Part shown: positions 1 to 13,608 of the stretch, piece by piece | Numbering within the stretch: the stretch's first letter is position 1 | How the letters are laid out: each line of letters opens with the position of its first letter | Origin: a virus | Reading direction: 5' to 3' (one strand) | Virus record (IMG/VR): IMGVR_UViG_3300048930_000650 | Location: 1 to 27,292 of that record | DNA: 27,292 nucleotides | The notes under the pieces: generated by a model | Told to the model about the DNA's origin: nothing | Databases searched by the model: none | Seen by the model: only the letters and a program-made list of their open reading frames with translations | Position numbers and translations under genes: made by a program

Positions 1-378
1 TCCATAAACCAACGCACGTCCAGAAACTCGCGCATTTTCAAAAACTAGCGCCTGTCCATAAACCCGCGCATTTCCAAAAACTAGCGCCTGTCCAGAAACT
101 AGCGCCTGTCCAGAAACCCGCGCATTTTCAGAAACCCACGCATCTCCATAAACCTGCGCATCTCCATAAACCAACGCATTTCCAAAAACTAGCGCCTGTC
201 CAGAAACCAACGCACGTCCAGAAACCCGCGCATTTTCAGAAACCCACGCACGTCCAGAAACTTGCGCATCTCCATAAACCAACGCACGTCCAGAAACTCG
301 CGCATTTTCAAAAACCAGCGCCTGTCCATAAACCCGCGCATTTTCAGAAACCCGCGCATTTTCATAAACAAAACAATC
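1..378. repeat. 18-bp tandem repeat array, 20 copies plus a degenerate copy
   Basis: Twenty contiguous 18-bp units fill 1-360 with no length variation, followed by a degenerate 21st unit at 361-378. The consensus is TYCAKAAACYMRCGCAYB. The unit encodes one six-residue beta-helix turn on the minus strand. Units 1-4 (1-72) and 16-19 (271-342) are 71/72 identical, so a block of about 270 bp shows a higher-order duplication. Constant unit length and an open reading frame indicate a coding repeat rather than a CRISPR or satellite. Confidence 0.95.
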
Positions 379-513
379 CCCTTCGTGTGATAAATTCGCC
401 TCATGCTCGATATATCCACCAATTAAATCGTCTGAAATTCGCTTAATCTGTTTAAGCACCTTATCGTTATGTTCAATCGTATGTCCTGTAAATTCATATT
501 TACGATTACGCAT
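1..513 (-). CDS. Hexapeptide-repeat (beta-helix-like) protein, C-terminus cut by window edge
   Basis: The frame is open from ATG at 513-511 to base 1 (171 codons, no stop), so the gene continues leftward outside the window. A good ribosome site (CGGAGC) lies 5 bases before the ATG. Residues 1 to about 45 form a non-repetitive head containing GGYIEHEANLSHEGDC. From about residue 46 the protein is a strict six-residue repeat of the form G/E-N/D/Q/R-A-R/L/Q/W-V-S/Y/F (for example ENARVS, GQALVF, GDAQVY). This periodicity is that of left-handed beta-helix hexapeptide proteins. Similar GNARVYGNA-type proteins are common and uncharacterised in phages and bacteria. It is the only leftward gene in the window and is probably transcribed from the divergent region at 514-1238. 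Function unknown: surface binding or a structural role is possible. The other reverse frame (FLKMRG-type repeats) is broken by stops in units 3, 5, 6 and 11, so this frame is the coding one. Confidence 0.85.
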   Translation of the reverse strand, partial: MRNRKYEFTGHTIEHNDKVLKQIKRISDDLIGGYIEHEANLSHEGDCFVYENARVSENARVYGQALVFENARVSGRALVYGDAQVSGRAWVSENARVSGRALVSGQALVFGNALVYGDAQVYGDAWVSENARVSGQALVSGQALVFGNARVYGQALVFENARVSGRALVYG

Positions 514-559: not shown

Positions 560-576
560 TGCATTGCTTGTGCCAA
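560..576 (-). promoter_or_regulatory. Sigma-54-like -24/-12 element
   Basis: The minus strand reads TTGGCACAAGCAATGCA against the consensus TTGGCACG-N4-TTGCA, with two mismatches (the base after GGCAC and the first base of the -12 box). It lies 47 bases upstream of the leftward gene start at 513, which puts an expected transcript start near 548. This makes it the best-placed candidate promoter for that gene. Confidence 0.55.
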
Positions 577-672
577 ACTGCCCGCCAAATAAACGCGCAT
601 TAGCGTATAGTCGCTGTACATTGTTTAAAAGTTTTACAGTTCTTGCTGAGTTTGCTGTAAATTGCCTAAGGC

Positions 673-689
673 CGCAATCCCCGTGCCAA
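673..689 (-). promoter_or_regulatory. Sigma-54-like -24/-12 element
   Basis: The minus strand reads TTGGCACGGGGATTGCG. It has the full TTGGCACG box and TTGC at exact -24/-12 spacing; only the last base departs from consensus. It points toward the leftward repeat-protein gene. Confidence 0.6.
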
Positions 690-728
690 CCCCATGCTAA
701 TCATTTTGCCTGAAATTTTAGTCCAATT

Positions 729-745
729 TTGGCACGATTCTTGCA
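729..745 (+). promoter_or_regulatory. Sigma-54-like -24/-12 element (perfect match)
   Basis: TTGGCACGATTCTTGCA matches the sigma-54 consensus TTGGCACG-N4-TTGCA at every fixed position. The GG is at 731-732 and the GC at 743-744, giving an expected start near 756, facing the late operon. There is no nearby gene start, so a long leader would be needed. Confidence 0.65.
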
Positions 746-750
746 ATAAA

Positions 751-767
751 TGCACAAAATATGCCAA
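751..767 (-). promoter_or_regulatory. Sigma-54-like element, converging on 729-745
   Basis: The minus strand reads TTGGCATATTTTGTGCA, a weaker match (T and A after GGCA, G in the -12 box). It sits 5 bases after the + element at 729-745 in opposite orientation, forming a 39-bp imperfect dyad. Confidence 0.45.
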
Positions 768-780
768 ATCGAAGCAAACG

Positions 781-797
781 CAGGCACGTTTCTTGCA
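781..797 (+). promoter_or_regulatory. Sigma-54-like -24/-12 element
   Basis: CAGGCACGTTTCTTGCA has GGCACG-N4-TTGCA with exact spacing; only the two bases before GG differ from consensus. It lies 52 bp after the first + element. Confidence 0.6.
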
Positions 798-803
798 TAT
801 AAA

Positions 804-820
804 TGCAAAAACCATGCCAA
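804..820 (-). promoter_or_regulatory. Sigma-54-like element, converging on 781-797
   Basis: The minus strand reads TTGGCATGGTTTTTGCA, one mismatch from TTGGCACG-N4-TTGCA. It lies 6 bases after the + element at 781-797 and repeats the dyad arrangement. Confidence 0.5.
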
Positions 821-832
821 ACTGCGTCCCCT

Positions 833-849
833 TGCAATAATTATGCCAA
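833..849 (-). promoter_or_regulatory. Sigma-54-like element
   Basis: The minus strand reads TTGGCATAATTATTGCA, with both boxes and correct spacing and two mismatches after GGCA. It has no + strand partner at the spacing seen in the other pairs. Confidence 0.45.
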
Positions 850-866
850 GTTTCCATAGTTTAAGT

Positions 867-883
867 CTGGCACGGCCCTTGCA
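867..883 (+). promoter_or_regulatory. Sigma-54-like -24/-12 element (near-perfect)
   Basis: CTGGCACGGCCCTTGCA has TGGCACG-N4-TTGCA with exact spacing. The only departure is C for T at the first position, which sigma-54 promoters tolerate. Expected start near 894, reading toward the late operon at 1239. Confidence 0.65.
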
Positions 884-889
884 AAAAAA

Positions 890-906
890 TGCAAAAAGCA
901 TGCCGA
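890..906 (-). promoter_or_regulatory. Sigma-54-like element, converging on 867-883
   Basis: The minus strand reads TCGGCATGCTTTTTGCA, with GGCATG and TTGCA at correct spacing. It lies 6 bases after the + element at 867-883 and forms the third dyad. Confidence 0.45.
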
Positions 907-1008
907 GCGCACATTTTTTAATTGGGGTGGCTTTGTGGATGCGCTACGGGGCAATAATCACGGCATGTACACAGCCATTTTATTGCATATAGGAAGCAAT
1001 ACATTAGC

Positions 1009-1129
1009 TCCCACCCCTCAAAAAAGTTTTTTATTAATGCTTTTAATGCTTTATACCGCACCCCCCACATAAATTTTTTTATAAGACCGGCCTATTTATG
1101 CCTATGGCACCCCCCTAAAAAATTTTTTT
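1009..1129 (+). repeat. Threefold C-tract/A-tract/T-tract repeat
   Basis: Three related blocks begin near 1009, 1059 and 1107, about 48 bp apart. Each has CACCCC or CACCCCCC, then an A-rich run, then six or seven Ts. A fourth copy in inverted orientation is at about 911-933 (T-run followed by GGGGTGG). They lie between the sigma-54-like elements and the first late gene. Function unknown; protein-binding sites or bent DNA are possible. Confidence 0.55.
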
Positions 1130-1152
1130 CTTGCAAAAAGTTGTTGCCAACC

Positions 1153-1169
1153 TGCAAAAAATATGCCAA
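1153..1169 (-). promoter_or_regulatory. Sigma-54-like element close to the late operon
   Basis: The minus strand reads TTGGCATATTTTTTGCA, with both boxes at correct spacing and two mismatches after GGCA. It lies 70 bp before the first late gene but points away from it. Confidence 0.45.
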
Positions 1170-1238
1170 ACTAGGCTTACTAAGTGCTCACCTATTGCAT
1201 TTAATAACTAATATATTCAATCTAAAAGCTCATATAAC

Positions 1239-1853
1239 ATGGCCATAAAAAAGTGCACCAAACCGAAGGCCCAAAATACGGGGTCCAAAAAAAATTTTAA
1301 ACTATCTAGTCGGGCCATAGAGCGGGCTAAAGCCGCAGGCCTACCTGACCCTACCCCCCACAGCCGCGAGCAATTTATAGAGCTTCAGAAGCAATGGTAT
1401 GAGAAGCTAGCCAAGTCTGGCTTTAAAGACCTGGAGTGGGTTGACCACACTACCGGCCTAGGCCACGATACTCCGCACCTCAAAGGCTCCTTAAGCCTAG
1501 GTAGGACCTACCATCCAGGCCGTGCGCTCTATTATGACATGGCACTTGCTTATTTAACTCACTGCAGAAGTTTATCGGGCTTTAATCGCTTCATATGGCG
1601 GCTGCACGCCAACGGCGCCACCTACGACCAAATCATGGACGCCCTGCGCTCAAAATATAAGCACGTGCCCAGCAAGTACACTGTATTCTATACTATTCAA
1701 AAGCTGGCTAAGCTTTGTTACCGCTGGAATCGCAAATACCCAGAAGGCATACTGGTTAAGCGCACCGAAGACCGGTCGGCGATTGTTGAATCTTTTATTG
1801 CAGAAATCATTGCAACCGAGTACAATTGGATTATCGGCGAAGAAGAACTTTGA
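1239..1853 (+). CDS. Protein of unknown function with possible helix-turn-helix
   Basis: This is the first gene of the rightward operon, 204 residues, ending in TGA. I do not recognise the family. The N-terminus (about residues 1-35) is very basic and probably disordered (KKCTKPKAQNTGSKKNFK). Residues about 50-66 read FIELQKQWYEKLAKSGF. Around residues 125-155 the stretch GATYDQIMDALRSKY followed by a second helix looks like a helix-turn-helix. The C-terminus is acidic (IIGEEEL). A basic tail plus a helix-turn-helix next to the control region suggests DNA binding, either a regulator or a small-terminase-like role; this is inference only. The ribosome site before the ATG is weak, but no better in-frame start exists. 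Confidence 0.75.
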   Translation: MAIKKCTKPKAQNTGSKKNFKLSSRAIERAKAAGLPDPTPHSREQFIELQKQWYEKLAKSGFKDLEWVDHTTGLGHDTPHLKGSLSLGRTYHPGRALYYDMALAYLTHCRSLSGFNRFIWRLHANGATYDQIMDALRSKYKHVPSKYTVFYTIQKLAKLCYRWNRKYPEGILVKRTEDRSAIVESFIAEIIATEYNWIIGEEEL

Positions 1854-1883
1854 CGCCCCCTAGGGCCTAAACAGGATTTGTTT

Positions 1884-2117
1884 ATGCATGTACGCGCCAA
1901 CATATATTTGAACATACCAAGTCCAAAGTCGGGCCATACGGTTAGCGCCGCCTTACCTTGCACGGCCACCGGCCACTATGTTCCTGAAACCGGCACCGTG
2001 TTTTTGGACAACGTATATTGCAATGGAAAGTACTACGACATTAAAGAGTTGAGCAAAGATGAGATTGCCAACATATATGATGCGCTGTATGAAGCCGTGC
2101 TGGATTTGGACTTTTAG
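1884..2117 (+). CDS. Hypothetical small protein
   Basis: 77 residues from ATG 1884, with AGGA at 1873-1876 seven bases upstream. A TTG two codons earlier (1878) is in frame but worse placed. The protein begins MHVRANIYLNIPSPKSG, has two CNG/VYC-type cysteines near the middle, and an acidic helical end (IYDALYEAVLDLDF). No family recognised. It starts 30 bases after the preceding gene and belongs to the small-gene cassette ahead of the terminase. Confidence 0.7.
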   Translation: MHVRANIYLNIPSPKSGHTVSAALPCTATGHYVPETGTVFLDNVYCNGKYYDIKELSKDEIANIYDALYEAVLDLDF

Positions 2118-2186
2118 AGTTGCCCACAGGGCATGTGCAATAAATATCTTCAGGGAGATGCGAAGCATCGACCGCCAAGGAGTACC

Positions 2187-2420
2187 GTGCTAAAAATAAA
2201 CGTCACCGAACTAGAACAAGCCATAGCCCTGCTAAAAAAACGCAGCACAGACGTACATTGCACCATTAGGCAAGCAAGCCCGGAAAGCTTGACTATTAGC
2301 TTTACGTCCGTAGACGGAGAATTAATTACCGTAGAGATTTGGACCGAAAGCACGCGCAATTTTGCCAAAGTATCTTCGACTGAGCGCCTAGGCGAAGTAC
2401 TTAAGCGAAGCAAGGTGTAG
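2187..2420 (+). CDS. Hypothetical small protein, GTG start
   Basis: 77 residues. The start chosen is GTG 2187 because AAGGAG at 2177-2182 is a strong ribosome site four bases before it. The in-frame GTG at 2133 would add 18 residues that look non-coding and has no such site. The predicted fold mixes an N-terminal helix (VTELEQAIALLKKRS) with beta strands (LTISFTSVDGELITVEIW). No family recognised. Its stop is separated from the next ATG by one base, indicating translational coupling. Confidence 0.7.
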   Translation: MLKINVTELEQAIALLKKRSTDVHCTIRQASPESLTISFTSVDGELITVEIWTESTRNFAKVSSTERLGEVLKRSKV

Positions 2421-2421
2421 T

Positions 2422-2634
2422 ATGCATATTTATAGTCCAAAAGAACTTTATAAGCTTAAAGACAAGGCCACCACCCTGTTTAAGGAAACCAACTTCAACG
2501 CCTATGACTCGGACCTGCAGCACATTGTATGCATACTGCTAACGTTTGTAGCCGATTATGAAGCACGAACCGGCCAGCAGTTAGACTTTAAGCTAGAGTC
2601 TAGGCAAGCCCACAGCAGCGTAGACGACCTATAG
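2422..2634 (+). CDS. Hypothetical small helical protein
   Basis: 70 residues, starting one base after the previous stop, so probably translated by coupling. Mostly helical (KELYKLKDKATTLFK, HIVCILLTFVADYEARTG). It has one moderately hydrophobic stretch too short and too charged at the flanks to be a confident membrane segment. No family recognised. Confidence 0.65.
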   Translation: MHIYSPKELYKLKDKATTLFKETNFNAYDSDLQHIVCILLTFVADYEARTGQQLDFKLESRQAHSSVDDL

Positions 2635-2658
2635 CCTGCCTAATAAAGGCCAATATAT

Positions 2659-2961
2659 ATGAGCAATGACAGCAACAATCGCGACAATCCTACCATATAC
2701 CCGTCCGTAGACGCCATGGTGGCCGACGCCCTATCGGTTGTAGAAACTGAAATTCTCAAATACAAATCTAAAGTAAAGCAAGGCCGGTCCCTTGAGCCGA
2801 ACGAGGCCAAAATACTCCAGGGCTATATTAAGAGCTTGGTTGACCTTAGCCGAGAAGACCGAGAACGTGCCAAAGAATCGGACCTGTCTAAACTTTCTAC
2901 AGAAGAACTCGTGCAATTACTTGGCAACAAAAAACCACAACTTCCCGAAGGCAAAAAATGA
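2659..2961 (+). CDS. Hypothetical protein, possible small-terminase-like
   Basis: 100 residues, highly charged and helical. The middle reads LQGYIKSLVDLSREDRER and the end DLSKLSTEELVQLLG followed by a basic Pro-rich tail. The LS-T/D-EEL-x-x-LL ending is common in small phage proteins near the terminase, some annotated as small terminase subunits. The resemblance is weak, no DNA-binding motif is certain, and the gene lies about 3 kb before the large terminase. The stop overlaps the next start (ATGA). Confidence 0.7.
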   Translation: MSNDSNNRDNPTIYPSVDAMVADALSVVETEILKYKSKVKQGRSLEPNEAKILQGYIKSLVDLSREDRERAKESDLSKLSTEELVQLLGNKKPQLPEGKK

Positions 2962-3170
2962 TGGTAAAGGTTGTGCCGCTGCCCTGTTCGCACGACGGCA
3001 TTAAGTTTGATATTATATTGCCTGAAGGATACGCTAAAACAATTGAATTGGATATTTATGCATTAAGGGCTTATAGAGGTGCTTCAGTAACAGAAATTAT
3101 TGAGCAAATAGTTCTTGACTTTGTGCAAGAATCGTGCCAAATTGATAATGTGGCAATAATTTACTGCTAA
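2958..3170 (+). CDS. Hypothetical small protein
   Basis: 70 residues beginning MMVKVVPLPCSHDGIKFDI. It overlaps the preceding stop in an ATGA arrangement, typical of coupled translation. It has a beta-rich first half and a helical second half (ASVTEIIEQIVLDFVQ). No family recognised. The preceding gene ends in a GAAGGC run that can act as its ribosome site. Confidence 0.65.
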   Translation: MMVKVVPLPCSHDGIKFDIILPEGYAKTIELDIYALRAYRGASVTEIIEQIVLDFVQESCQIDNVAIIYC

Positions 3171-3193
3171 ATCTTGCTTACTTAGGCGTATAT

Positions 3194-3373
3194 ATGAACT
3201 TAAATGAAATGTATAAGCAGCTGGCAGCCGAACTTGGCGACATAGTATTTAAGCAGCAACTTATGGAACAAAAGCGGCTCGAAGTTATTGCTAAAATTGA
3301 AGCCCTGAATACGCTGGCATCGCAGCCTTCTAAGGCACAAGGGGCCAATGAAACGCAAGAAAAGAAAACTTAA
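3194..3373 (+). CDS. Small coiled-coil-like protein (59 residues)
   Basis: ATG at 3194 to TAA at 3371-3373. The protein begins MNLNEMYKQLAAELGDIV and is almost entirely helical with a heptad-like middle (FKQQLMEQKRLEVIAKIEAL), followed by a polar tail. It fills the gap between neighbours and overlaps the next gene by 26 bases, like other pairs in this cassette. No strong ribosome site is visible. Size and charge pattern resemble small phage accessory proteins; no function can be assigned. Confidence 0.6.
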   Translation: MNLNEMYKQLAAELGDIVFKQQLMEQKRLEVIAKIEALNTLASQPSKAQGANETQEKKT

Positions 3374-3623
3374 AGACTGCCAGCAAGACGCGATGTCGGT
3401 GCTAACTTACTTGCTAGCCGAGGCCTACGAGACCGGCAAAGACTTTCACTACCGCCTCAGGCTACCCTACGGGCCAAAAAAGTCCGAAGACGGAATGATA
3501 GCGCAAGTAGAAATTGTTGTAGATTTTTCAGTATATTTTGACGGAGAATTATCAGATGAGCGAAATGAATCAGAGCGAGTTACAAAGTTTAAAATCACTG
3601 GACCAGACAAAGGCAAACACTAG
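3348..3623 (+). CDS. Hypothetical protein
   Basis: 91 residues with a very basic start (MKRKKRKLKDC), a helix (AMSVLTYLLAEAYETG) and then a beta-rich part (FHYRLRLPYG, AQVEIVVDFSVYFDG). Overlaps both neighbours (26 bases with the gene before, 68 with the acetyltransferase after), consistent with a compact operon. AAGGG at 3337-3341 (AAGGGG of the sequence before the ATG) can serve as ribosome site. No family recognised. Confidence 0.65.
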   Translation: MKRKKRKLKDCQQDAMSVLTYLLAEAYETGKDFHYRLRLPYGPKKSEDGMIAQVEIVVDFSVYFDGELSDERNESERVTKFKITGPDKGKH

Positions 3624-4038
3624 TCCAATCAGCATACGTCCAGCCTCCCAGGCCGACGTGAGCTTTATATTTAACAGCTGGCTCAAAAGCTATCAAAGCA
3701 GCTGCAAGCACATTGCAGCCCCAGTCTACTTTGAATTCCAGCACAAACTAATCGAGTCTATTTTGAAGCGCAGTACAGTACTAGTTGCCGTTAATACAAC
3801 CGATGAGCAGCAAATCTATGGCTACCTAGTCTGCGAAAAAATCCAAGACGTTACTGTGCTGCACTATGCCTATACAAAAAACTTGTACCGCCGAACGGGC
3901 ATTCAAAAAAAACTACTGGCAGCCGCCAACATATCTTTAGCAGAACCTTGCTTCATTAGCCACAAAACAGTCGTTTGTTCTAAGCTTGCTTCCAACAGCC
4001 TGGTGTATAATCCTTATTTGGCCTATGGAGCGCAGTAA
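3556..4038 (+). CDS. GNAT-family N-acetyltransferase
   Basis: 160 residues from ATG 3556, preceded by GGAG at 3543-3546; an in-frame TTG at 3538 is less likely. The N-terminal 25 residues are polar. A GNAT-like start follows (SIRPASQADVSFIFNSW), then VLVAVNTTDEQQIYGYLVCE, and the acetyl-CoA-binding motif A region YTKNLYRRTGIQKKLL, where R-R-T-G-I-Q matches the Q/R-x-x-G-x-G/A loop imperfectly. GNAT enzymes transfer an acetyl group from acetyl-CoA to an amine; the substrate is not predictable. Genes of this kind recur near the terminase in environmental podophages. The stop overlaps the next start (TAATG), linking it to the ClpP-like protease. Confidence 0.75.
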   Translation: MSEMNQSELQSLKSLDQTKANTSPISIRPASQADVSFIFNSWLKSYQSSCKHIAAPVYFEFQHKLIESILKRSTVLVAVNTTDEQQIYGYLVCEKIQDVTVLHYAYTKNLYRRTGIQKKLLAAANISLAEPCFISHKTVVCSKLASNSLVYNPYLAYGAQ

Positions 4039-5918: not shown

Positions 5919-8399
5919 ATGAGCAAAATTAGGCCCGACCTAGTACTCAAAGAACTTAAAAAACGGGCTGCAACGCAAAGCAAGGAGTTTACTCTTGAAG
6001 ACTTTTGCTTTGATAAGCAGCTTGCGTTTATTCAAGACCCAGCTAGGTTTAAGGTAGCAGTGTGTTCGCGCCGTTGTCTGGCCGAAGATACGCTTGTACA
6101 AACTACTAATGGCCCAATGCCTATACAAAATATTAAGCCCGGCGATTATGTGTATAGTGAGCACGGTAAGCCAGTAAAAGTTGTTAAAACTTTTTATAAT
6201 GGAATTAAACTGGTCCATGCCCTTACAATGAACTCTAGAGTGCTAGTAGAAAGTACTCTTGACCATGTATTTTTAACCACAAACGCCCGTTCCAACACAA
6301 CAAAGCAACTAGCAGTTTCTGAATTTAACAGCGGAACTAAAATAAATCGTATAGAGGTGAATAGACAGCATGGTAAACATATTACAACCGCGTATGCTAT
6401 TGGGGCGCTGTTGGGAGACGGGTGTAGTCGTGAAAAATTTAAATCTAGGCTGTATATATCCTCTGGCACCATGGCAGTACCGCAAAAGGTTGCAGCCCAA
6501 CTAGATACTGTAGCCATAGCGCCAAGGAGCAACAACTACACTTGGACTCTTCCTACTGGAACAGGTCCAGCTTTTTACGCGGAATGGGCACAAAACAGGT
6601 ATGCTCATGAAAAAACATGCGATATTGCGGAAATTCTATCGTGGGACCGCGAGTCTCGGCTACAATTTCTAGCTGGGCTGCTAGACACGGACGGGTCAAT
6701 TACCAATCAGCCAGACGGTCTTCAGTTTAGAATTAGCATGCAAGCAAAGCCAATAATCGAGGCGGCAAGGATATTATTTTTAGATTTGTGGGGCTATTTA
6801 CCAACTTTAAAGTGCGACAACAGACCTAAATATAAAAACGGCCCAGTTTGGGAGTTAACATTAAAACACAATTATTTTGCTGTTAAAGCTTTAAAAGAAT
6901 TAGACCCATTTTTAGTAAGTCCTCAAAAGAAATTTAAGCCAGAATATGAACATAAGCTAGTTAATAATTATAGACCAGATAGAGTTGGAATTAAATTAGG
7001 CAATGCTAGACTTGCTCGCACTTATGATATCCATGTGGAGTCGCCAACTAATTTATATATGCTAGCCAACGGCCTTATTACGCATAATAGTGGTAAAACC
7101 ATAGCATGTGCAGCAGATTTATTGCATACAGCTAGTACTAAAAAAGGCGATGTGGCCTATATTACTCTAAACCGCCGTTCTGCAAAAAAGATTATTTGGC
7201 GTGACCTGCTCCTCTACAATAAAGAATATAAGCTGGGCGGTAAAGCAGACAACACTGAACTCACTTTAACTATGCCAAATGGTAGCGTAATTCATGTTAG
7301 TGGGGCTAAGGATGAGCAAGAAGCTGAAAAGCTGCGCGGTCTTGCCTTGCGCAAAGTTTACATCGACGAAACGCAAAGCTTCAGGCCCTACCTCGAGGGC
7401 ATGATTGAAGACGTGCTAGTTCCGAGCTTAACCGACTATAATGGGTCGTTGGTACTCATTGGAACGCCTGGCCCAGTACCAGCGGGCTTTTTCTACGAAA
7501 TTTCTGGCGGTAAAAAAGAGCGCTCAGAAGGCTGGTCAACCCACCACTGGACCATGCAAGATAACCCACACATATATCTTAAGTCCGGCGTACAGCCCCT
7601 AGATGCAATTAAAGAAATTGCCAAGCAGCGTGGAGTGCAATTAGAAGATGCACGTATTCAGCGTGAGTTCTTTGGCCGCTGGGTACAAGACTCCGACAGT
7701 TTAGTATATAAATTTAGCCCAAATCACAATATTTACTTGCATTCCGCGCCAAATGATGCCATATTTGTTGTAGGCGTGGATATTGGATACGTTGACGCAG
7801 ACGCCATAGCGGTGCTTGCCTACAGCCCATCTGAACGCCGAGTATATTGTGTAGAAGAATATATTCAGGATAAAAGCCCCATAACCCCCTTAATGCTTAA
7901 ATTAAAGCATTTTAAGGAAAAATATCAACCGGTAAAAATGGTTATGGATGCAGGCGGTCTGGGTAAGAAGATTCAAGAAGAACTATTGCAGCGTCACGGC
8001 ATTTTTATTGAGGCTGCTGAAAAAGCCCGTAAGACTGAGTTTATTACGCTACTCAACGACGACCTGACTAGTGGTAGGCTGCAGTTTTTGCCTGAAAGTC
8101 GATTTGAGCAAGATTCCTACCTGCTACAATGGGACTACTCCAATCCGTCCAGGGCAGTAATCGACAGCCGGTACCACAGCGATATAGCCGATGCGGTCCT
8201 GTATGCTTGGCGAGAATGTAAGCATTTTTATGAGCGAGACCAGGTTCCAGTAAAGCCAACTCCAGACCAATACATGGCCGAGTTAGAGGCCAAAGAAGCC
8301 GAAGCCATGGAGCGCCAAAAAGCTGGTGGTAATGCGTTTACGGACGTAAATGATTGGTCTGACTTAGGAATTCCCGATTACGATTACGAAACCGAATAA
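5919..8399 (+). CDS. terL: Large terminase subunit split by an in-frame intein
   Basis: 826-residue precursor: 488 residues of terminase plus a 338-residue intein (residues 53-390). After splicing, CSRR joins SGKT to give the Walker A P-loop, so the precursor cannot hydrolyse ATP until spliced. Other terminase marks: Walker B VYIDE (residues 480-484), RNase H-like nuclease acidic residues Asp621 (GVDIGYVDAD), Asp677 (MVMDAGG) and Asp755/Asp758 (SDIADAVLYAW). The protein drives DNA into the procapsid with its ATPase and cuts the concatemer with its nuclease, docking on the portal encoded downstream. Spliced length is usual for a podophage terminase. The ATG has no strong ribosome site. Confidence 0.95.
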   Translation: MSKIRPDLVLKELKKRAATQSKEFTLEDFCFDKQLAFIQDPARFKVAVCSRRCLAEDTLVQTTNGPMPIQNIKPGDYVYSEHGKPVKVVKTFYNGIKLVHALTMNSRVLVESTLDHVFLTTNARSNTTKQLAVSEFNSGTKINRIEVNRQHGKHITTAYAIGALLGDGCSREKFKSRLYISSGTMAVPQKVAAQLDTVAIAPRSNNYTWTLPTGTGPAFYAEWAQNRYAHEKTCDIAEILSWDRESRLQFLAGLLDTDGSITNQPDGLQFRISMQAKPIIEAARILFLDLWGYLPTLKCDNRPKYKNGPVWELTLKHNYFAVKALKELDPFLVSPQKKFKPEYEHKLVNNYRPDRVGIKLGNARLARTYDIHVESPTNLYMLANGLITHNSGKTIACAADLLHTASTKKGDVAYITLNRRSAKKIIWRDLLLYNKEYKLGGKADNTELTLTMPNGSVIHVSGAKDEQEAEKLRGLALRKVYIDETQSFRPYLEGMIEDVLVPSLTDYNGSLVLIGTPGPVPAGFFYEISGGKKERSEGWSTHHWTMQDNPHIYLKSGVQPLDAIKEIAKQRGVQLEDARIQREFFGRWVQDSDSLVYKFSPNHNIYLHSAPNDAIFVVGVDIGYVDADAIAVLAYSPSERRVYCVEEYIQDKSPITPLMLKLKHFKEKYQPVKMVMDAGGLGKKIQEELLQRHGIFIEAAEKARKTEFITLLNDDLTSGRLQFLPESRFEQDSYLLQWDYSNPSRAVIDSRYHSDIADAVLYAWRECKHFYERDQVPVKPTPDQYMAELEAKEAEAMERQKAGGNAFTDVNDWSDLGIPDYDYETE
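6075..7088 (+). mobile_element. Intein with LAGLIDADG homing endonuclease, inserted in the TerL P-loop
   Basis: The 338-residue element starts at Cys53 (CLAEDTLVQT, intein block A) and ends in HN before Ser391 as the +1 nucleophile. Block B is seen as ESTLDHVFLTT and the C-terminal block F/G as YDIHVESPTNLYMLANGLITHN. Two dodecapeptides mark a LAGLIDADG endonuclease: YAIGALLGDG (residues 159-168) and LAGLLDTDG (residues 251-259), each with its acidic residue, so it looks active in both splicing and homing. All expected terminal residues (Cys, His-Asn, Ser) are present. The insertion point, inside the most conserved ATPase motif, is typical of inteins. Confidence 0.95.
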
Positions 8400-8433
8400 C
8401 GGCCCTAATAATTTAGTATATAAGGAAAGCTAA

Positions 8434-8676
8434 ATGCTAGAAAATATTCAAAATCTACTCGAATTTATCGAGAAAGCCAAGAAGGCGCGAATTAAGTCCT
8501 TCCAAATTGGCGATATTAAAGTGGAATTTTCTGATTTGGCCTTTTTAGACGACATCCCTGAAGTGCCTCTGGAGCCGGTTAAAGCCCGTGAAGAGCGTGA
8601 CACTTCCACAACGTTAGTAGACACTGCGCCTACTACTGACGAGGATGAGCTTTTATTTTGGAGCGCCAAAAACTAA
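8434..8676 (+). CDS. Small acidic protein between terminase and portal
   Basis: 80 residues with AAGGAAAG ahead of the ATG. Helical start (MLENIQNLLEFIEKAKKARIK), a short beta part (SFQIGDIKVEFSDLAF) and an acidic disordered tail (TTDEDELLFW). Small proteins with an IGDIKVEFS-like strand are common at this place in podophage genomes and have no established function. Overlaps nothing; 12 bases separate it from the portal gene. Confidence 0.7.
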   Translation: MLENIQNLLEFIEKAKKARIKSFQIGDIKVEFSDLAFLDDIPEVPLEPVKAREERDTSTTLVDTAPTTDEDELLFWSAKN

Positions 8677-8688
8677 TTGGGTCTATAG

Positions 8689-10560
8689 ATGAATTTTGAT
8701 TACGACTGGTATAAGAAGCAAGGTAAGGAACTGGCTCAAAGTGTGACGCAGTTGGTTGATTTGCTGCGCCGAGACCAATCTTATCGCCAAGAAGAAAATT
8801 TTCGCCATATTAAGCTTTATGGCAACATGGAAGCCTATACTCTCAAAAACTATGGCTTCTATCGCGCCGAACCTACTGCCAGCGTAGTTAATCGCGTGAC
8901 TTTGAACGTAGTTCAGAGCATGGTTGACACCGTTGTGTCTAAGCTTACAAAAAATAAACCACGCCCCAGCTTTCTAACTGACGGCGGAGACTGGTCCGTT
9001 CAGCGCAAGGCCAAAAAACTCACACAATTCATTGACGGGCAATTCTACAGCACAGACTTCTATTCTAAGCGTGCTATTTGCATTCAAGACAGCGCAATCT
9101 TTGGTACTGGCGCACTTAAAATTTATCGCAACGACAATAAGATTTGCAGCGAGCGCGTGTTTATTGATGAATTGTCAGTAGATGAGAATGAAGCACTATA
9201 TGGCGACGTGCGCACGCTTTATCAAGTAAAGTGGTTGCCATTAGAAGTCTTGCAAGAAATGTTTCCTGATAAAAAGGTAGAGATTCAGCTTGCTGGTAGC
9301 CCAGAAATCAGTGAATGGGCCTCCAACACCACTCGCGCCAAAGTCCCCATGATTAAAGTTTATGAAAGCTGGAGACTACCGAGCACCCCCACCTCTAAAG
9401 ATGGTAAGCATGCGATTTGCATTGCGACTGCCACGCTGTTTGAAGAAAAATGGACTAAAGACTATTTTCCTTTTGTGTTTTGGAGATGGACTGTGCGCCC
9501 TATTGGCTTTTGGGGCCAGGGCGTAGCTGAGCAACTCACAGGCATTCAGCTTGAGATTAACAAAATCTTACGCACAATTCAGATTTCTATGCACTTGGTT
9601 AGTGTGCCTAAAATCTTTGTTGAAGCCTCTAGTAAAGTTGTTGAAAGCCACTTAAACAATAAGATTGGTGGCATTATTAAGTATGTTGGGCAGCCGCCTA
9701 TTGAAGGAAAGCTCGGCACAGTTCCTCCTGAACTGTTTAATCACCTAGACAGGCTTTATAGCCGTGCATATGAGGTGGTGGGAGTGTCGCAGTTAGCGGC
9801 CCAGGCCACTAAGCCTCAGGGCCTAAATAGTGGTAAGGCACTGCGAGAATACAATGATATTGAGTCTGAGCGCTTTATGAGTGTTGCTCAGCGAGACGAA
9901 GCCGCAGTACTGCAGGCCGCTGCCCAATATATTGACCTGGCTAAAGAAATCTACGAAGAATACGGTGAATTTAAGGTTAAAACCAAAGGCAACCGCTTTA
10001 TGGAAACCCTGGATTGGGCCGATGTGGACTTAGAAGCTGACCAATACATCATGCAGTGCTTTCCAGTGTCTGCGTTGTCAAAAAGCCCAGCAGGCCGCCT
10101 TCAGGATGTGCAAGAACTTATGGGCGCAGGGCTTATTGGTCGTGAAGATGGCATGAAACTGCTTGATTTCCCAGACTTGCAGCAATTCTACAACTTCAAC
10201 AACGCAGGGCTCGAAGATATTGAGCGCACTATCGAAGAAATTATTGACAAAGGCCTGTATAGCACTCCAGAGCCATATCAGAACTTGCAGCTTGGCGTTG
10301 TTAAAATGCAGCAGGCCTACTTGCTCTATAAGTCGCAAGGTGCGCCTGAAGAGCGCCTGGAGTTATTCAGACGCTGGATTGAGGACGCTCAAACACTGCT
10401 AAACCGAGCCGCTCAAGAACAAGTAAATCAGCAGCGCCAAGTGCTTGAAGAACAAGCCATGGCCGAAGACGTGCAAGCGCAGCAGCAGGCCACAATTGAC
10501 CAAAACGTGGATGTTCAGGCTGCGCCTGAGCCTGGAGTGCCAGTACCTCCTATTCAATAA
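8689..10560 (+). CDS. Portal protein (head-tail connector)
   Basis: 623 residues, within the podophage portal range. It forms the dodecameric ring at the capsid vertex through which terminase packages DNA. Recognisable portal features are an N-terminal helical region with NVVQSMVDTVVSKLTKNKPRP (positions near 80-100), the DSAIFGTGALKIY segment, a central TVRPIGFWGQGVAEQL stretch near 270-290, and SGKALREYNDIESERF in the region of the stem/crown helices. The C-terminal 70 residues are Gln/Ala-rich and probably disordered. Directly follows the terminase module and precedes the scaffold, the usual order. The ribosome site is weak. Confidence 0.9.
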   Translation: MNFDYDWYKKQGKELAQSVTQLVDLLRRDQSYRQEENFRHIKLYGNMEAYTLKNYGFYRAEPTASVVNRVTLNVVQSMVDTVVSKLTKNKPRPSFLTDGGDWSVQRKAKKLTQFIDGQFYSTDFYSKRAICIQDSAIFGTGALKIYRNDNKICSERVFIDELSVDENEALYGDVRTLYQVKWLPLEVLQEMFPDKKVEIQLAGSPEISEWASNTTRAKVPMIKVYESWRLPSTPTSKDGKHAICIATATLFEEKWTKDYFPFVFWRWTVRPIGFWGQGVAEQLTGIQLEINKILRTIQISMHLVSVPKIFVEASSKVVESHLNNKIGGIIKYVGQPPIEGKLGTVPPELFNHLDRLYSRAYEVVGVSQLAAQATKPQGLNSGKALREYNDIESERFMSVAQRDEAAVLQAAAQYIDLAKEIYEEYGEFKVKTKGNRFMETLDWADVDLEADQYIMQCFPVSALSKSPAGRLQDVQELMGAGLIGREDGMKLLDFPDLQQFYNFNNAGLEDIERTIEEIIDKGLYSTPEPYQNLQLGVVKMQQAYLLYKSQGAPEERLELFRRWIEDAQTLLNRAAQEQVNQQRQVLEEQAMAEDVQAQQQATIDQNVDVQAAPEPGVPVPPIQ

Positions 10561-10683
10561 TTGCACCTATAAGCCATTAAGTGCAAATTACGCCAAAAAT
10601 CTAAACAAAATTTAAGGCCAAGGTACGGCCCAAAGTACCGCTGTGCGCAATTAAGCTGCTCAGCAATAAGATAAGGATACCAT
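10561..10683 (+). promoter_or_regulatory. Portal-scaffold spacer with hairpin
   Basis: A perfect 6-bp inverted repeat TTGCAC (10561-10566) / GTGCAA (10581-10586) follows the portal stop directly. A short dyad GGTAC/GTACC lies at 10622-10639, and TAAGGATA forms the ribosome site of the next gene. No T-run follows the first hairpin, so it is not a normal terminator. It may be an RNA processing or stability element. Confidence 0.35.
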
Positions 10684-11622
10684 ATGCAAGACAATAATTC
10701 AGAAGTGCCCCAGTACGGCGGCTCTACGGACCTGGCTCCCGATGCTGTAGAAACTATTAAGCAGGCAATGAATGGCCCTGTTGAGGGCATTCAAGGCGCC
10801 CCAGAAGGTGCTGAAGAGGCTCCTGCAGCCGAAGAAGTTAAAGAGCCGGTGCAAACCGAGCAAGAACAAAGATTTGCAGCTAAATTTGCGGCCCTCAGTC
10901 GTAAAGAAAAGCAAATCCGCCAACAGGAAGCTAAGCTACAGCAGCAAATGAATGATTTGCAAGCCCGACTGCAGCAGTTTGAGGAGCAGCAAAAGTCTAT
11001 GGAGCCGCTCAAGGCCATACCAGAACGGCTTAAAAAGGAGCCTTTTAAGGTCCTAAAAGAGCAGGGCTTCACGCTTGAGCAGATTACCGAAATGATGCTC
11101 AACGACGGCGAACTATTGCCTGAGACCAAAATGACTCAATATGAGCAAAGAATCCAGGAGAAGCTGCAGGCCCTGGAACAAAAGTTGGCCGAAAAGGAAG
11201 CTAAAGAACAGGAAGAAAAATATGAAGCTGCCCTGAACCAGTTTAAAGCGCAACTTACTGATTTTGTTAATAAAGATGAGACTTATGAGCTAATTAAAGC
11301 CAATGACGCCGTGGATGTTGTATTTGAGCTAATCGAACAACATCATCAAGAAACAGGCGAAATTTTGTCTAATGAAGAAGCATGTAATGCAGTAGAAGAG
11401 CACCTGCTAGAAGAAGCTAAAAAGCTGGTGGACCGCGAAAAAGTCAAAAAACTTCTACAACCACAGCCAACTAAAAAGCCAGCACCGGCTCAAGGTGCAG
11501 GAAAGTCGTCACCCACACTTTCGAATGCTCAAGCGGCACAAGCATCTCAAAAACCGAGCCGCACACTAAGTGATGAAGAGTCTAAGGCAGAAGCCGCAAA
11601 ACTCATTCGTTGGATGGATTAG
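10684..11622 (+). CDS. Capsid scaffolding protein
   Basis: 312 residues, very rich in Gln, Glu and Lys. Residues about 1-60 are acidic and Pro/Ala/Gly-rich. Residues about 68-105 form a long coiled coil (LSRKEKQIRQQEAKLQQQMN and onward), and a second coiled coil lies near 150-185. The C-terminal part is Pro/Ala/Gln-rich linker and a charged terminal helix (SDEESKAEAAKLIRWMD) of the kind that contacts capsid subunits. Position between portal and major capsid gene matches scaffolds of podophages. It would direct procapsid assembly and then leave. TAAGGATA precedes the ATG. Confidence 0.85.
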   Translation: MQDNNSEVPQYGGSTDLAPDAVETIKQAMNGPVEGIQGAPEGAEEAPAAEEVKEPVQTEQEQRFAAKFAALSRKEKQIRQQEAKLQQQMNDLQARLQQFEEQQKSMEPLKAIPERLKKEPFKVLKEQGFTLEQITEMMLNDGELLPETKMTQYEQRIQEKLQALEQKLAEKEAKEQEEKYEAALNQFKAQLTDFVNKDETYELIKANDAVDVVFELIEQHHQETGEILSNEEACNAVEEHLLEEAKKLVDREKVKKLLQPQPTKKPAPAQGAGKSSPTLSNAQAAQASQKPSRTLSDEESKAEAAKLIRWMD

Positions 11623-12464: not shown

Positions 12465-13608
12465 AGAAAATATGGTCTATGCTGACAACCCCTTGCTTGC
12501 TATGTTGCCCAAAATGGAGCAATTCGGCGGTAAAAACTTGCCCATTCCGATTATCTACGGAAACCCGCAAGGCCGTTCTGCTACATTCAGCACAGCCCAA
12601 GCTAACAAAACTAACTCTCAGCTCAAAGATTTCGTTTTGATTCGTAACCACGATTATTCGTTGGCTTCGATTTCTAACGAAGTACTTGAGGCCTCTAAAG
12701 GCAACGCCAACGCGTTCATGGAAGCTGCTACCGCTGAAATCGACGGTGCAATCCAGTCGGCGACTCGCTCGCTTGCAATTGCCCTCTATGGAACTGGTTC
12801 TGGTTCTATTGGCAGAGTTGCAAACAGCTCGTTTGCTACTACTGTGTTGACTTTGACTGAAGCTAGTGATGTTACTAACTTCGAAGTTGGCATGAAACTT
12901 GTTACTAGCTCTACCGATGGTGGTGGTTCTGTACGTGCCGGTACTTTGACAATCGTTGGCGTTGACCGCGATGCTGGTACTGTTACTATGTCTGGCAACT
13001 TGTCAGCTGGTATTGCTGCAATTGCTCAGAACGACTTCATCTTCGTAGAAGGCGATTACGACCAAAAAGTTAAAGGACTCCGAGCTTGGTTGCCTGATTC
13101 TGCACCAACTTCTTCACCTTTCTTTGGCGTTGACCGCACTGCTGACGTAACTCGTTTGGGTGGTATCCGTTTTGACGGTTCTACTATGCCCATCGAAGAA
13201 GCGTTGATTGCTGCAGCTTCTCGCGTTGCCCGTGAAGGTGGCCGTCCTGACCATTGCTTCATGAACTACAGTGAATATGCTGACCTTGAAAAAGCCCTCG
13301 GCTCTAAAGTTCAGTATGTTGACCTGAAAGTTAACGCTGATATCGGTTTCCGCGGTATTGTGGTAAACGGACCTCGTGGACCTATTAAGTGCATTCCTGA
13401 CCAAAACTGCCCCGGTGGCCGTGCTTTCATGCTCCAATTGAACGTATGGAAACTGTACAGCTTGGGTAAAGCTCCCAAAATCTTGGACACTGATGGTCTT
13501 AAGATGCTTCGTGAATCTTCTGCCGATGCGGTTGAAGTTCGCGTAGGTTACTATGCGCAATTGGGCTCGAGAGCGCCTGGTTGGAACGCTAACGTAAAAC
13601 TTAAATAA
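12465..13608 (+). CDS. Major capsid protein, exon 2 (HK97-type)
   Basis: Encodes 381 of the 400 capsid residues. The segment beginning MVYADNPLLAMLPKMEQFGG with GGKNLPIPIIYGNPQGRSA is typical of podophage major capsid proteins, as is the C-terminal part (SSADAVEVRVGYYAQLGS). An insertion-type beta domain lies around TLTIVGVDRDAGTVTMSGNL. GC-rich third positions and uniform codon choice suggest high expression. ATG 12472 has no ribosome site and would drop the conserved N-terminal region, so the exon join to 11692-11750 is preferred. An intrinsic terminator follows 22 bases after the stop. Confidence 0.93.

Follow-up and report, generated by a model that had tools for sequence, protein, structure and literature searches.

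The involvement of host sigma-54 in phage transcription has a precedent in YuA, the promoters of which were reportedly found by Ceyssens et al. in 2008 to depend on rpoN, in a test using an rpoN mutant. Three high-activity -24/-12 promoters are annotated in the late region of this genome (NC_010116), as single sites among co-directional late genes, and no pairs or arrays were seen there. In E. coli, most sigma-54 binding appears to be transcriptionally inactive, and sigma factors compete with one another at intergenic sites (PMC4591121). The sigma-70 bidirectional promoters of the same species have pseudo-symmetric core elements, with divergent starts approximately 18 bp apart, and one binding event shuts out the other (PMC12825309). 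Descriptions of how phages take over host transcription usually concern the main sigma factor, and a search of open-access full texts returned nothing on point for phage sigma-54 arrays or decoys.

The window, i.e. the whole 27.3-kb linear record from an uncultured virus, contains an array of -24/-12 elements in the 725-bp gap separating a leftward ORF (1-513, minus strand) from a rightward ORF (1239-1853, plus strand). The former, cut by the contig end, encodes a beta-solenoid (YdcK-type) repeat protein (PF18836, phrog_7964/5070) and is built of 18-nt repeats belonging to a repeat family common across phages; as a route to relatives of the window it was abandoned, because the commonness of the repeat led to unrelated phages being returned. 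The latter encodes 204 aa without a database family, is 32% identical to a homologue in the viral contig L009, and is the first in a rightward series of ORFs leading to the terminase (5919-8399, plus strand), a P22/SU10-type portal (8689-10560, plus strand) and an SU10-like major capsid protein (12472-13608, plus strand). The terminase ORF includes matches to Hint_2 and LAGLIDADG_3, both below the curated cut-offs, and seems to carry an intein-like insert in the large subunit. No close cultured relatives of the window were detected, with the capsid giving one match at 22.6%, the portal none, and the 204-aa ORF as a query no confirmed match. Between the array and ORF 1239, at 1011-1129, there are three repeats in which a C-run is followed by A/T-runs (CACCCCCC..AAATTTTTTT).

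All ten elements proposed in the first-pass annotation are present at 560-1169. Six of the ten are taken up by face-to-face pairs with -12 boxes 5-6 bp apart, a geometry that had gone undescribed. Pair A (729-767) consists of elements 730-745 (+) and 751-766 (-), reads TTGGCACGATTCTTGCA-ataaa-TGCACAAAATATGCCAA and scores 21.9 and 15.9 bits, with predicted divergent starts near 756 and 740. Pair B (781-820; elements 782-797 (+) and 804-819 (-)) reads AGGCACGTTTCTTGCA-tataaa-TGCAAAAACCATGCCAA, at 15.5 and 20.6 bits, and pair D (867-906; elements 868-883 (+) and 890-905 (-)) reads CTGGCACGGCCCTTGCA-aaaaaa-TGCAAAAAGCATGCCGA, at 18.1 and 14.1 bits. With initiation assumed to occur 12 nt beyond the GC, the divergent starts of the window pairs would be 15-16 bp apart. 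The four unpaired elements of the array, TTGGCACAAGCAATGCA (560-575, 15.7 bits), TTGGCACGGGGATTGCG (673-688, 13.7 bits), TTGGCATAATTATTGCA (833-848, 20.8 bits) and TTGGCATATTTTTTGCA (1153-1168, 19.7 bits), all lie on the minus strand, as does an extra perfect element at 3124-3139 (TGGCACGATTCTTGCA, 21.9 bits), which was absent from the earlier description, is identical to 730-745 in 16/16 bases and is found within a coding ORF (2958-3170), antisense and near its 3' end. Only element 560(-) is placed as an ordinary promoter might be, its predicted start falling approximately 36 nt upstream of the start codon (ATG) of ORF 1-513.

Scores were taken from a matrix of 71 published ChIP-mapped sigma-54 sites from E. 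coli (PMC4591121) and Salmonella (PMC3844500). The ten elements follow TGGCAYR-N4-TTGCW, the GG and GC being a fixed distance apart, and their 13.7-21.9 bits fall among the scores of the 71 reference sites, save that site 730, like 3124, reaches 21.9 bits against a reference maximum of 21.0. With this E. coli/Salmonella matrix, 15 matches of at least 12 bits are found in the window, of which ten fall within 560-1169, compared with a mean of 3.45 in Markov versions covering the full 27 kb. Against TGGCACG-N4-TTGCA, the plus-strand elements 730 and 868 have no mismatches, in keeping with the full or near-full matches claimed at 729 and 867, the T said to be missing before the GG at 781 is indeed the one mismatch of 782(+), and 673(-) departs only in the final A. 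Six other minus elements had been placed two or three bases from the consensus, which is accurate for 560, 833, 890 and 1153 (two each) and for 751 (three), whereas 804 differs at only one position, leaving the minus elements nearer to consensus than had been stated. The assertion that such repetition cannot be chance also stands, as approximately 0.08 matches would be expected in 610 bp, against the 10 observed.

As exact scans impose most of the motif, the identity of the elements was tested on a set not chosen by motif, comprising the unconstrained partners in face-to-face pairs together with sites located by homology in cultured phages; a few of the partners, which had four mismatches and were apparently out of register, were excluded by hand, and 69 elements remain. 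The mean Jensen-Shannon divergence of these from the reference sigma-54 profile is 0.0185, and their variable columns fit the reference when tested against permuted columns (P = 1e-4). The frequencies at -21 are C.60 and T.37 in the phage elements (reference.57 and.35), at -20 G.63 and A.29 (.57 and.34), at -12 C.91 and T.06 (.87 and.09), and at -11 A.61 and T.30 (.53 and.38). A second profile, compiled over 55 contigs, has Y at -27 and R at -19, both being positions on which no constraint was set. Since an unrelated regulator is not expected to mimic the degenerate columns, this agreement supports a sigma-54 identity, and the original description of the motif as sigma-54 type is borne out both by the matrix scores and column by column. 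At the level of sequence, these comparisons establish the array elements as sigma-54-type recognition elements, present far above chance and in a specific face-to-face geometry; that the host sigma-54 holoenzyme binds them is, on the same grounds, highly probable.

The distribution of this geometry was studied by scanning a viral collection for exact TGGCAYRNNNNTTGCA facing its own reverse complement. Face-to-face pairs are found in about 130 viral contigs, which come from at least 40 groups between which no shared genes were detected, the groups having been delimited by the homology that partial contigs allow to be detected. The spacers are mostly 2-5: there are 93 contigs with spacers of 3-12, in which 117/131 sites have a spacer of 3-5, and 43 with spacers of 0-2, nearly all at 2, while the 20 spacer values from 13 to 32 together yield 61 contigs, scattered across the range. 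The back-to-back arrangement occurs in 86 viral contigs, many of them identical to face-to-face contigs. By contrast with the 93 contigs, a reversed control motif of equal composition is found in 2, and only 4 face-to-face pairs, with spacers of 7 or 10, were returned when bacterial and archaeal genomes totalling 257 Gb were scanned in the same way. An artefact of chance or composition, for which no point could be found, can be dismissed almost entirely on the basis of the reversed control and of the ten elements seen where approximately 0.08 are expected.

Many viral contigs contain 4-11 elements inside approximately 200-300 bp. No common protein families were detected in 40 array contigs, from the DNA fetched around the arrays, in which genes were called by simple ORF rules. 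Among 28 array phages, most of them nearly whole, terminase, polymerase-like, portal and capsid-type families recur, but none is universal, and no universal regulator family was detected, although small or divergent proteins could escape such a search; the lack of a common regulator family argues for a host factor. The nearest relatives of the window are mostly without arrays: strong sites occur at 0.35 per 27 kb in 80 relatives found through the capsid, many of them fragments missing the homologous region, against 11 in the window. One relative, L009, has at 1075-1140 three identical TGGCATGGTACTTGCA elements with a 25-bp period, all antisense to the flanking genes. Other arrangements are also seen. 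A 124-kb viral contig (L207) has seven back-to-back pairs at 700-3850 with a constant 10-bp spacer, several of which precede a CRP-like site (TGTGA-N6-TCACA) and a TTGACA box, and in a 236-kb contig (L143) face-to-face pairs recur every 500-1600 bp at 7300-11100, near gene boundaries, most being flanked by GGGGAGAAAA / TTTTCTCCCC inverted repeats.

Cultured representatives were identified through a composite array-pair query, which matched unannotated gaps in the Pseudomonas phages phiPMW, vB_PpS_SYP and XD2. Pseudomonas, the host of these pair-bearing phages, has rpoN. The SYP pair reads TTGGCACGATTCTTGCA-AT-TGCAATTTACATGCCAG, its left half being identical to window 729-745. For the XD2 region there are 162 matching records, of which all but one (161) are Pseudomonas phages, many of them Pakpunaviruses; the presence of the pair was checked in a subset of the matches. 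Across 14 aligned cultured phages (Pakpunaviruses and relatives), there is essentially no variation in TGGCA, TGCAA..GCAA or TGCCA, in contrast to the N4 stretches, which vary. Four phages (SYP, XD2, K5 and phiPMW) have an outward sigma-70 promoter beside the pair, its -35 box and the pair being 11-12 bp apart. The first 1.1 kb of K5 (L312 131-1093) contains seven sites scoring 13 bits or more, in both orientations, all inside the 1,182-bp terminal repeat and four of the seven inside CDS K5_002. The first-pass annotation had held that a motif spread through coding sequence would count against its reading; such spread is seen in part, in element 3124 and in this terminal repeat. In phiPMW, the right-hand element of the pair, TTGGCATGATTCTTGTA (L294 6019-6034), is identical throughout to the sigma-54 site published for pspG of E. 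coli. Sigma-54-type sites in SYP and the cultured Pakpunaviruses enclose conserved stretches without annotation (L298 1369-1720, L295 5850-6100), which have sigma-70 promoters of their own and look like small noncoding RNAs; an Rfam search near the sites returned nothing above the gathering score.

The proposal that these elements drive a late operon does not fit their positioning. The nearest plus element, 868, predicts a start approximately 345 nt before ORF 1239, 7/10 elements face away from that ORF, and no orientation bias is found across phages, with 32 edge elements directed toward gene starts and 34 away (p = 0.43 relative to gene ends, in array contigs thinned for shared genes). Several arrays are positioned between convergent genes. 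In the largest group, the array divides a replication-side operon from an endolysin-terminase-portal operon, and in this best-sampled group a sigma-70-like TTGACT-N17-TATACT lies between the array and the first gene of the terminase operon. More generally, no more than 100 bp from arrays there are 22 sigma-70 promoters directed outward, against 6.9 expected, and 9 directed inward; in one case (L170) the array sits between two divergent consensus sigma-70 promoters, each approximately 20 bp from the array edge. No convincing sigma-70 promoter was seen beside the array in the window itself. The activator family PF00158 has no match in the window or in 28 relatives, and in 50 array records, many of them fragments, it is represented by only three partial, weak AAA-type matches; PF04552 (sigma-54) is absent from the same 50. 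A sigma-54 or activator encoded by the phages was set aside, as these searches identified no convincing gene. An RNA hairpin or terminator was likewise rejected, as the N4 stretches of the two halves of a pair are not complementary.

The favoured explanation, which is nonetheless held to be only evenly balanced, is that the array provides docking sites for host sigma-54 holoenzyme that act by occupancy, not as promoters. The elements, mainly in face-to-face pairs with -12 boxes 1-6 bp apart, would be recognised by the holoenzyme, which would sit on them in stable, inactive closed complexes, with occupancy itself as the proposed function. Bound holoenzyme might compete with, or insulate, the adjoining phage sigma-70 promoters, and multiplying phage genomes could draw sigma-54 polymerase off host promoters, thereby acting as a sink; where a host activator is present, initiation from the elements would be possible, yet not required. 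In favour of this are the sigma-54 profile, the pair geometry with its spread over unrelated phages and conservation in cultured ones, the lack of relation between orientation and gene starts, the excess of outward sigma-70 promoters and the sites in the K5 terminal repeat, together with the apparent inactivity of most sigma-54 binding, and the sigma competition, in E. coli (PMC4591121); against it are the promoter-like placement of 560(-), the lack of an adjacent sigma-70 promoter at the window array and the mostly array-free closest relatives. Furthermore, two holoenzymes could not fill both halves of a pair at once, and hence a pure sink would not need the pair geometry. That symmetry is best accounted for by the explanation ranked next, although it is on the whole doubtful: bidirectional sigma-54 promoters, on which holoenzyme would bind either way round and, with a host activator, generate divergent starts 15-20 bp apart that feed both flanking operons. 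Start separation equals 21 minus the spacer, giving 15-16 bp in the window and 16-19 bp at spacers of 2-5, which resembles the commonest separation of 18 bp at E. coli sigma-70 bidirectional promoters (PMC12825309); the position of the largest-group arrays between replication-side and terminase operons, and the three annotated promoters of YuA, also agree with it. It is more difficult to reconcile with the independence of orientation from gene starts, even if symmetric pairs weaken that test, or with arrays between convergent genes and elements inside genes; nor was a phage activator found in the records searched, and in several cases the flanking genes are already served by sigma-70 promoters.

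An operator array, bound by some DNA-binding regulator (encoded by the phage or otherwise) with a site that only resembles a sigma-54 element, would explain the palindromic form, the sharp spacer preference and the adjacency to sigma-70 promoters, all typical operator features. It is nevertheless improbable, since the profile of the sites is, in each column, that measured for sigma-54 and the 28 array phages have no regulator family in common, notwithstanding the small or divergent proteins that could escape detection. Less probable still, and very unlikely, is the original reading of ordinary one-directional sigma-54 promoters of a late operon, which has the quality of the motif and the annotated precedent of YuA in its favour, but which has to contend with the distance of the nearest plus element from ORF 1239, the seven elements facing away and the lack of any relation to gene orientation across phages. 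The wider form of the favoured explanation, that many unrelated lytic phages independently carry dense, near-consensus face-to-face arrays that capture sigma-54 holoenzyme in an inactive state, both tuning local phage sigma-70 promoters and starving host sigma-54 programmes, is advanced more tentatively, as somewhat less than an even prospect.

If the arrays do act as a sink, host motility, pili, nitrogen and stress programmes would be starved during infection. The questions raised concern the presence of sigma-54 polymerase on incoming phage DNA, its effect on early phage transcription and the depletion of host sigma-54 output, and a direct test is feasible since the pair is conserved in cultured, easily grown P. 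aeruginosa phages (PAK_P2, K5 and relatives). Among uncultured viruses, the arrays would serve as a marker for phages of rpoN-bearing hosts.

The phage arrays share with the -24/-12 promoters of proteobacteria (E. coli and Salmonella) the 16-bp element and its degeneracy, as represented by the 71 published sites; however, host sites are scattered, mostly single and oriented, whereas the phage sites form tight arrays of face-to-face pairs. The inactive sigma-54 sites of E. coli are alike in the non-transcribing bound holoenzyme proposed here and in sigma-70 competition at intergenic positions, but they are chromosomal, single and mostly inside genes (PMC4591121), whereas those of the phages are concentrated on phage DNA. 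The bidirectional promoters of E. coli use sigma-70, whereas sigma-54 requires an activator and the phage pairs are repeated in arrays. YuA makes use of the same host promoter class, but its elements read into late genes, whereas the window has no plus element close to ORF 1239; its genome contains 0 16-mers matching TGGCAYRNNNNTTGCW, and its three annotated promoters score weakly on the matrix. Sigma-54 promoters in phage being already known from YuA, it is the face-to-face array arrangement that appears to be new, and these phages appear to exploit host sigma-54 in a manner not described in the open-access papers searched.
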